NCBI GenBank assembly: GCA_028684065.1
Contig: JAQUGO010000008.1
Location: 1 to 64,000, forward strand
Source: Sulfurospirillaceae bacterium
GTDB taxonomy: Bacteria; Campylobacterota; Campylobacteria; Campylobacterales; Sulfurospirillaceae
Reading direction: 5' to 3'
DNA length: 64,000 nucleotides
This document shows positions 10,876 through 13,384 of this stretch, one piece after another (the first letter of the stretch is position 1; every line of letters starts with the position of its first letter). The position numbers were made by a program, and so were the translations under genes. The notes beneath the pieces are model-generated. The model was not told the origin of the DNA. It did not search any database and saw only the letters and a program-made list of their open reading frames with translations.

Positions 10876-11602
10876 TACTGGTAACAAATTACAATTGATT
10901 TATATTTTCCCTAATCTTTTCACAGCCGCGAGTGCTTTTTTAGGAGTTATTAGTATTTTAGCTTCTGCTGCCGGTGAGTTTGAAAAAGCAGCTGGGTTTA
11001 TTTTACTTTCATTGATATTTGATGGGCTTGATGGCAGAGTTGCACGTATGACCAATACTACAAGTCAATTTGGTGCAGAATTTGATTCTTTGGCAGATAT
11101 AGTAGCCTTTGGTGTCGCGCCTGCAATGCTTTTTTATTTTAGTATTGGGCATTCTTTTGGTAAATTAGGCTCACTGATGTGTGCGATGTATGTTGTTTTT
11201 GGTGCTATCCGACTAGCACGCTTCAATGTGATGATTGGGGTCAGTGAACCTTCTGTTTTTATAGGTGTTCCTATTCCTACTGCTGCAGTTGTTGTAGCGA
11301 TGTGGATTTTATTTTATCAAGAGCATGCTTTTATGCAAGGCTTAGAATGGACAGCTTTAATAGGACTAGGCATCTTGTCTTTCTTAATGGTTAGTAATAT
11401 TCGATACCCAAGTTTTAAAAAGATTGATTTTAAAAAAGCCAATTTAATTAAAATTTTAGTCTATTTAGTGCTTTCATTTTCAATTTTGTATCTTTTTCCT
11501 ATTGAAGCTGGAACAGGTTTAGTGACAGCTTATCTTTTTTATGGGTTAGGAAGAGGTATTTATAATTTCGTAATTGCAAAATACCATAAAAATTCAGTAT
11601 AA
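10865..11602 (+). CDS. pssA: CDP-diacylglycerol-serine O-phosphatidyltransferase PssA
   Basis: PssA makes phosphatidylserine from CDP-diacylglycerol and L-serine at the inner membrane. The CDP-alcohol phosphotransferase motif D-x2-DG-x2-AR-x8-G-x3-D-x3-D is complete in DGLDGRVARM...FGAEFDSLAD (about 49-74). The rest is membrane helices, giving about 245 residues, typical of the type II enzyme. I start at ATG 10865 (MINNTGNKLQ), overlapping the upstream gene by 11 bases; an upstream in-frame ATG at 10808 would add 19 polar residues deep inside that gene. The TATAAT repeats at the 3' end look like the promoter of the next transcript. Confidence 0.93.
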   Translation: MINNTGNKLQLIYIFPNLFTAASAFLGVISILASAAGEFEKAAGFILLSLIFDGLDGRVARMTNTTSQFGAEFDSLADIVAFGVAPAMLFYFSIGHSFGKLGSLMCAMYVVFGAIRLARFNVMIGVSEPSVFIGVPIPTAAVVVAMWILFYQEHAFMQGLEWTALIGLGILSFLMVSNIRYPSFKKIDFKKANLIKILVYLVLSFSILYLFPIEAGTGLVTAYLFYGLGRGIYNFVIAKYHKNSV

Positions 11603-11608
11603 TATAAT
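11598..11608 (+). promoter_or_regulatory. Probable -10 elements for the leuA leader transcript
   Basis: Two overlapping TATAAT hexamers (11598-11603 and 11603-11608) straddle the pssA stop codon. A transcript from here would begin around 11612-11618, at the base of the long hairpin, and run through the leader peptide into leuA. A strong -35 is not obvious, which is common for sigma-70 promoters in this phylum. Confidence 0.5.
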
Positions 11609-11611
11609 ATC

Positions 11612-11654
11612 TTGCATCTTATAGGACTATTATCAAAAGTTCTATAAGATGCAA
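11612..11654 (+). other. Long perfect hairpin at the start of the leuA leader
   Basis: TTGCATCTTATAG (11612-11624) is exactly complementary to 11642-11654, and pairing extends four more steps (one G-U) to a 9-base loop. No T-run follows on either strand, so it is not a standard intrinsic terminator for pssA. It would sit at the very 5' end of the leuA transcript, where it could protect the mRNA or serve in regulation. Confidence 0.6.
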
Positions 11655-11680
11655 AGCTATCAATTAAGAAAGGAGAGACG

Positions 11681-11776
11681 ATGAATAGCGTGAATATTGG
11701 TATCATAAAATCCATCAAAATTTTACCCAAAATAGAGATAAAAAACGCTCTCCTGCAACTACAACTCCTCTTCTAA
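11681..11776 (+). CDS. leuL: Leucine-rich leader peptide of leuA
   Basis: A 31-codon open frame starts at ATG 11681, with AAGGAGAG (11670-11677) upstream as a near-perfect ribosome-binding site, and ends at TAA 11774-11776, 54 bases before leuA. The peptide ends ALLQLQLLF: five of the last eight residues are leucine, encoded CTC, CTG, CTA, CTC, CTC. These CTN codons contrast with the TTA/TTG that dominate neighbouring genes, including TTA at the leader's own Leu15. This is the layout of an amino-acid-sensing leader peptide, where ribosomes stall on leucine codons when charged tRNA-Leu is scarce. The stretch CTCTCCT (11748-11754), spanning the first Leu codons, is complementary to the leader's SD AGGAGAG. 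No clear terminator hairpin follows, so the mechanism may act on translation or RNA stability. The gene name is by analogy only. Confidence 0.75.
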   Translation: MNSVNIGIIKSIKILPKIEIKNALLQLQLLF

Positions 11777-11830
11777 TTAACCTTTTTATTTTACAAATCA
11801 ACTAAGCAAAACAAACTTAAGGATTATACT

Positions 11831-13384
11831 ATGAGTAATATTATTAAAATTTTTGATACAACGTTACGTGATGGTGAGCAGAGTCCTGGTGCTTCAATGA
11901 ATACGGAAGAGAAAATACAAATTGCCTTACAATTACAAAAATTGGGAGTTGATATTATTGAAGCTGGATTTGCCGCAGCAAGCCCGGGGGATTTTGATGC
12001 TATTGCCCGTATAAGTGAGATGATTACGCATAGTACGGTATGTTCTTTGGCACGTTCTTTAGAAAAAGATATTAAAGCAGCAGGCGAAGCAGTGGCTCGT
12101 GCAAAGATGAGACGTATCCATACGTTTATCGCTACTAGTCAAATCCATATGCAGTATAAACTTAAGATGACACCCGATCAAGTCATCAAAAAAGCTGTTG
12201 AAGCGGTTCAATACGCAAAAACTTTTTGTGATGATATTGAGTTTAGCTGTGAGGACGCAGGACGTAGTGATGTAAGTTTTATGAAAGAAGTTCTTGATGC
12301 GGTTATTCAAGCAGGTGCTACTACCCTTAATATCCCAGATACAGTAGGGTACCGTTTACCGAATGAAATGGGTGCTATCATTAAGTCCTTATATGAGTTT
12401 GTAGGGGATAGAGCAATTATTTCTGTGCATAATCACAATGATTTGGGATTAGCCGTTGCAAACTCTTTGGCATGTATTGAAAATGGAGCACGTCAGGTTG
12501 AATGTACGATTAATGGTTTAGGCGAGCGTGCAGGGAACGCTGCACTTGAAGAGATTGTGATGATCTTAAAGACGCGAAAAGATCATTTTTCTCAGTTTGA
12601 TACGAATATTAATATTAAAGAAATTTATCCAACAAGTAAATTAGTATCTTCTATCACGGGACTTGAGCCACAACCCAATAAAGCCATCGTAGGTAAGAAT
12701 GCGTTTTCCCATGAGAGTGGAATACATCAAGACGGTGTCTTAAAGCATACACAGACATATGAAATAATGAATGCAAAAGATATAGGACTTGATAAAAACT
12801 CAATTGTTTTAGGAAAACATTCAGGTCGTCATGCCTTTAAAGATAAATTGAAAAGCTTGGGTTATGATTTAAAAGATGAAGATATAAATGAAGCATTTGA
12901 GCGTTTTAAAATTGTAGCTGACCAGAAAAAAGAGATGTTTGATGATGATATTAGAGCTTTGGTAGCCGAAGAAATTACAAAGATTCCTCAAGTATTTGAA
13001 TTGATTACATTACAACTTTCAGATTGCTCTCCTGGAGGTGTTCCAAGTGCTGCTGTTACAATTCGTCATGAGGGCATTGATATTACGGATGCTGCTATTG
13101 GTAATGGTACTATGGATGCTGTCTTTAAAGTCATTGATCGTGTCTGTAAGGTCAGTGGTGAGCTTAAGGATTATAAAGTTGATGCAGTAACACAAGGCAA
13201 AGATGCAATGGCTAGAGTATTGGTTAAAGTTGTTTTTGATGAAAGTAAACCAGCGATTATGGGACATGGTCTTAGTGTTGATACGATGCTTGCAACAGCA
13301 AAGGCATATATCGGTGCACTCAATAGTTATATGTCTATGCGAGATGGCCTTAGGAATATTAACGCGAAAGCAAATAGTATCTAA
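11831..13384 (+). CDS. leuA: 2-isopropylmalate synthase LeuA
   Basis: LeuA condenses acetyl-CoA with 2-ketoisovalerate in the first committed step of leucine synthesis. The N-terminal TIM barrel has [13 protein letters not shown] (about 8-20, with metal-binding Asp) and the metal ligands in [14 protein letters not shown] near 200. The C-terminal LeuA regulatory domain (about 390-510), which binds leucine for feedback inhibition, is intact. Length 517 is that of the classic bacterial enzyme. The ATG has AAGGA at 11819-11823. A leucine-rich leader peptide lies directly upstream, so control is probably both by feedback and by leucine-dependent leader translation. leuB, leuC and leuD do not follow; the gene ends at a strong terminator facing pflB. 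Confidence 0.97.

Follow-up and report, generated by a model that had tools for sequence, protein, structure and literature searches.

The leader peptide LeuL upstream of leuA in six families of Campylobacterota carries a conserved body motif ahead of its regulatory leucine codons

Introduction

Does a leader peptide upstream of leuA act through its leucine codons alone, or does the encoded peptide itself contribute to control? The question is raised by a short frame in the window, by which we mean the whole analysed stretch of 64,000 nucleotides from a Sulfurospirillaceae genome. The frame lies in the 228 bases that separate the pssA stop at 11602 from the leuA start at 11831. Amino-acid leader peptides are normally viewed as runs of regulatory codons, the peptide itself being irrelevant. 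In the enterobacterial leuL/leuABCD attenuator, leuA is preceded by a leader peptide that contains Leu codons. The element described here shares this arrangement and differs in that no terminator/antiterminator was found and in that a conserved body motif is present.

The leuL element itself is already known in Campylobacterota, where it was predicted in 2013 (PMC3847290). LeuL was named in C. jejuni as a 28-aa peptide with five rare CUA/CUC/CUG codons, encoded 5′ of leuABCD (Porcelli et al. 2013, PMC3847290), and LeuL-like peptides occur in most Epsilonproteobacteria having leucine genes (PMC3847290). The C. jejuni leader RNA stops shortly past the leader stop codon (PMC3847290), and LeuL is translated there, its translation start having been seen by ribosome profiling (PMC11955535). 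The frame in the window (31 aa, SD AGGAGAG, 54 nt between its stop and leuA, rare C-terminal CTC/CTG/CTA codons) has in common with LeuL of C. jejuni and other Epsilonproteobacteria the position 5′ of leuA, an SD-led frame of 20–35 aa, rare C-terminal CTN Leu codons and the target, leucine biosynthesis. It differs in two respects. In C. jejuni leuABCD lie together, whereas here leuA stands alone and leuD-leuB are found at another locus; and the portions of text on LeuL in the published work name only Leu codons (PMC3847290, PMC11955535), whereas LeuL here also possesses a body motif, LPKIEIKN. The motif is apparently unreported: the string was absent from the literature searched, sequences in supplementary figures lying outside that search. 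As no C. jejuni locus was present among the motif matches of a species scan (see below), the C. jejuni leader probably lacks LPKIEIKN.

Results

The features of the locus are compiled in Table 1. The short frame with a strong SD and the 54-base spacing described in the initial annotation were recovered as claimed, and so was its leucine-rich end, with five Leu among the last eight residues, all encoded by CTC, CTG or CTA (CTC 11750, CTG 11753, CTA 11759, CTC 11765 and CTC 11768). When the gap was shuffled 20,000 times with dinucleotides preserved, only one shuffle yielded a comparable frame, defined as SD-preceded, 15 aa or longer and with at least five Leu in the last nine residues. The accompanying statement that neighbouring genes mostly use TTA/TTG was wrong, however, as CTN accounts for 51% of the Leu codons, mainly as CTT, in the 48 long ORFs of the window. 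The codons CTC/CTA/CTG make up 22.6% of the Leu codons in the same ORFs, and five out of five would occur by chance with a probability of ca. 6e-4. The leuL peptide had no match in Pfam or NCBIfam, and an Rfam search of the window matched only a tRNA elsewhere and thus no riboswitch, T-box or attenuator family. A second TATAAT, overlapping the predicted promoter, is found at 11603-11608, and a TATAAT-like -10 box lies just 5′ of the leader in most relatives. Since leuD and leuB are adjacent on another contig (around 102767-104325), far from leuA, leuL in this genome governs leuA alone. The distance between leuD and its preceding gene is only 60 nt, which leaves little room for a leader there.

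Table 1. Features of the leuL-leuA region (coordinates of the window).
Feature	Position	Strand	Remarks
Predicted sigma-70 promoter TTGCAA, 18 nt, TATAAT	11574..11603	+	prediction only
17-bp hairpin at the expected transcript 5′ end	11612..11654	+	from folding; genus-level feature, sequences differ in relatives
Shine-Dalgarno sequence of leuL, AGGAGAG	11671..11677	+	AGGAG-type SD in most relatives
leuL, leader peptide MNSVNIGIIKSIKILPKIEIKNALLQLQLLF	11681..11776	+	31 aa, ATG 11681 to TAA 11776
Codons for LPKIEIKN (residues 15-22), after conserved G7, K10, K13	11723..11746	+	
Regulatory Leu codons CTC CTG. CTA. CTC CTC	11750..11770	+	first two are the invariant Leu-Leu of all type-A leaders
C-rich, G-poor, unstructured stretch up to the leuA SD; candidate Rho-loading region	11750..11818	+	from composition
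leuA, 2-isopropylmalate synthase, regulated gene	11831..13384	+	TIGR00973, NF002086

The upstream regions of leuA were surveyed order-wide, the regions being chosen by leuA and not by the leader, with region G185 left out. An SD-led Leu-rich short frame was found 5′ of most surveyed leuA genes, namely in 29 of 30 cases in the window's family and in most other families. The alignment with other Campylobacterota proposed in the initial annotation thus revealed conserved Leu-rich short frames, and conservation lends strong support to its leader peptide 5′ of leuA, a peptide already published as LeuL (PMC3847290, PMC11955535). What that annotation overlooked is the main feature, a peptide motif conserved immediately ahead of the Leu codons. 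The pattern G-x2-K-x2-K-x-LPKIEIKN-x-L-L is near-invariant in 55 distinct survey leaders from six families (f1, f3, f9, f10, f18 and f21), referred to as type A, and within the window's family the same body is present in 24 of 30 leuA upstream regions, while five carry a different Leu-rich leader and one has none. All 55 survey leaders are identical at L, K, I, E and N of the core and at both following L, and the upstream G (54/55), the two upstream K (53/55 and 54/55) and P (54/55) are almost as constant; as type A was assigned by the core L[PT]KIE..N, part of this invariance is definitional, but the assignment made no use of the upstream G, of the two upstream K or of the L-L pair. The pattern is either present in full or absent altogether, because none of the remaining leaders had a partly degraded core.

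In comparisons between families, the LPKIEIKN codons display a pS of 0.91 and a pN of 0.037 (a large contrast, even though the pairs are not independent), and for the 16-codon segment that runs from G to N the values are 0.78 and 0.16, respectively. Synonymous sites in LPKIEIKN are therefore saturated, which points to selection acting on the peptide. An RNA signal was considered for the motif and rejected, since third positions vary freely and the residues do not. In line with arrest peptides, residue-level conservation is located ahead of the Leu-Leu pair, and the spacing LPKIEIKN-x-LL is invariant.

The specificity of the motif was assessed by searching 84,980 species for the degenerate pattern LPKIE[IT][KR]NxLL and close variants. 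About nine matches fell by chance in unrelated frames. All other matches are small frames that lie before leuA wherever the contig is long enough, or else at contig ends, and all are from Campylobacterota; two records labelled only Proteobacteria resemble the Campylobacterota matches. Named records with the motif include Sulfurospirillum, Campylobacter concisus, C. majalis, Hydrogenimonas and Nitratiruptor. In the window's genome the motif occurs once, and no second copy was found before other genes. It therefore offers a simple and highly specific tag for locating such leaders. These data also bear on the idea that LeuL is a trans-acting small protein, for example one operating on LeuA or a regulator, which is encoded in the leader by happenstance. 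Trans-acting leader peptides exist elsewhere, and the strong conservation at the peptide level would suit such a role. However, the constant position just 5′ of leuA wherever the contig permits a check, the freely varying C-terminal tail of LeuL and a conserved codon choice at Leu-Leu (see below), needless for a peptide acting in trans, render this explanation highly improbable.

Other leader types were also recorded. Members of f5 (L055, L059, L067, L070, L072, L073, L074, L076) carry a second type without LPKIEIKN and with a weak body pattern of approximately [IT]F[KT]xD-x-x-LLLL. In genera g4 and g5 of the window's family (L011, L022, L024, L026, L030) a third body, approximately HVxxISxxKRNNxLLLL, replaces the motif and the Leu run is longer. 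The leuL-leuA spacer of L027 and L029 is widened to about 160-230 nt and contains a further SD-led small frame starting MNNYRA. No SD-led Leu-rich leader was found in f15 (L088, L090, L092, L093, L099, L112); because leuA there seems to follow directly after the promoter, leader control seems to have been lost or never gained in this family.

Codon choice was compared within 101 motif leaders. The Leu of the motif itself is encoded by TTA/TTG in 85 of them, while the first regulatory Leu (Leu9) is CTN in 101/101 and TTR in 0/101, and the second (Leu10) is CTG or CTA in every leader. Within families, synonymous change is low (pS 0.10) in the three codons that include the Leu-Leu pair. Because codon choice flips within one peptide and pS and pN contrast as described, conservation concerns the residues in the body but the codons at the Leu pair, and this combination is the trace expected of an arrest dependent on both the nascent chain and decoding. 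Only two regulatory Leu codons are present in 9 of the 101 motif leaders (e.g. KNYLLR), whereas most motif-free leaders have at least five Leu in the last 12 residues, as expected if the nascent chain aids the arrest.

The RNA between leuL and leuA was analysed with respect to termination signals. As stated in the initial annotation, no terminator/antiterminator pair follows the leader: no intrinsic terminator was found before leuA in the window, shuffled sequences fold as well as the RNA between the Leu codons and leuA (mean z -0.02, 55 leaders), and no conserved structure or alternative pairing was detected 3′ of the Leu codons. A classical terminator/antiterminator attenuator was accordingly rejected. 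Of the 69 nt that run from the first Leu codon to the leuA SD, 19 are C and 2 are G. A C minus G excess of this size is reached in 0.13% of plus-strand windows, and over 94 leaders the spacer has 23.7% C and 8.1% G. Rho is encoded in the genome, and by its composition the spacer is a candidate rut-like region. Ordinary leucine attenuation, as in enterobacterial leuL and the C. jejuni model, would imply that only hungry Leu codons matter and that terminator/antiterminator hairpins decide on read-through. The Leu-rich CTN tail, the place before leuA and the short C. jejuni leader RNAs (PMC3847290) agree with it, as do T-runs past the stop codon in many Sulfurospirillum (f1) leaders, where some form of intrinsic termination may occur. 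Yet the terminator search and the folding results just given speak against this explanation, which also leaves the invariant LPKIEIKN with its saturated synonymous sites unexplained, and we consider it unlikely.

A further proposal of the initial annotation was a control of translation or mRNA stability by pairing of the leader SD with the CTCTCCT sequence over the first Leu codons. The complementarity is indeed present in the window (7 bp), and it mostly amounts to 6-8 bp in f1, parts of f3 and f9, and f21; the low synonymous change at Leu-Leu would likewise be compatible with it. It is not conserved in other families, however. Neither the Campylobacter concisus group (f10; SD AGGAGAGCG versus TCT CTA CTG) nor the relatives of Nitratiruptor (f18; SD AAGGAAAA versus CTC CTC CTG) retain the pairing, although the Leu-Leu codons stay. 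Moreover, CTC-CTN is automatically anti-SD, and permuted partners pair almost equally well (5.11 bp compared to 5.26 bp for the actual ones). The pairing was rejected as a conserved switch, and regulation of this type is very doubtful.

Folding of the leuA upstream region, also suggested at the outset, led to the perfect 17-bp hairpin of Table 1. Within the genus it is located directly after the TATAAT box, and its sequence varies while its pairing is kept by compensatory changes. In an alignment of 17 genus members 87.4% of the cells are paired, with a covariation of 0.274 versus 0.170 in shuffled and 0.05-0.12 in slid versions; the window's own sequence aligns poorly in this set, and its hairpin rests on folding. 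The hairpin may protect the transcript 5′ end. In most other families the predicted 5′ leader is about 15-30 nt long and without a hairpin.

Discussion

On the basis of the sequence comparisons we infer ribosome stalling, a role of the nascent chain, a mode of sensing (charged tRNA or free leucine) and a Rho step, and we propose the following scenario, which we regard as somewhat probable: leuL is a cis-acting leader on which ribosomes stall at Leu-Leu when charged tRNA-Leu is scarce, the nascent chain assists the stall, and transcription of leuA thereby continues, most plausibly in a Rho-gated manner. A ribosome would start on leuL soon after the promoter has been passed and, upon scarcity of charged tRNA-Leu, would halt at the invariant Leu-Leu codons (rare CTC-CTG/CTA). 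The nascent G-x2-K-x2-K-x-LPKIEIKN segment, then residing in the upper exit tunnel, might set or prolong the arrest. The parked ribosome would shield the C-rich, G-poor stretch between the Leu codons and leuA, such that RNA polymerase continues. With plentiful leucine the ribosome would complete leuL and leave, the unstructured stretch would be exposed, and transcription would end shortly past the leader. Rho is the most plausible agent of this last step because no intrinsic terminator was found.

Several elements of the proposed scenario have counterparts in TnaC (E. coli tnaCAB) and SpeFL, in which conserved residues are likewise distributed along the nascent chain and the site of arrest is fixed; arrest on TnaC blocks Rho, comparable to the Rho gating proposed for LeuL. 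Differences are that TnaC and SpeFL have no obvious sequence relation to LeuL, that the regulatory codons of LeuL specify the end product of a biosynthetic pathway, and that ligand sensing is hypothetical for LeuL. A ligand-type arrest, in which nascent LeuL binds free leucine in the tunnel as TnaC does tryptophan and tRNA charging is not read, would be in keeping with the conserved run of ca. 19 residues with its fixed spacing to the arrest codons, which resembles the way essential residues are spread in ligand-sensing arrest peptides (TnaC, PMC8429421). The restriction of the regulatory Leu to CTN, and of Leu10 to CTG/CTA, points instead to the decoding of particular tRNAs, and a stall at high leucine would have to lower leuA expression, opposite to the logic of TnaC. 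We therefore judge a ligand-type arrest to be decidedly unlikely.

Extending the favoured scenario of a stalled ribosome assisted by its nascent chain to the phylum, we tentatively suggest, with less than even confidence, that most Campylobacterota LeuL peptides are leucine-specific nascent-chain arrest peptides, responding to charged tRNA-Leu at CTC-CTR or to free leucine, for which two codons suffice and whose arrested ribosome gates Rho. The G-K-K-LPKIEIKN chain within the tunnel would here render the ribosome acutely leucine-sensitive. Conservation of the body might also reflect a different function of LeuL. Leucine control as such can do without the motif, because f5, f8, f12, f13 and parts of f1 and f10 use other bodies.

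Leader regulation has been little studied in Campylobacterota. The element is of a known kind and carries an apparently unreported, strongly selected motif, and the contribution of the nascent chain is its most interesting testable claim. A control element of a biosynthetic pathway has kept a near-invariant peptide of ca. 19 residues across six families while synonymous sites became saturated. If this peptide assists stalling, LeuL would represent a naturally occurring arrest peptide tuned to leucine, in which control by tRNA charging and control by the nascent chain are combined.
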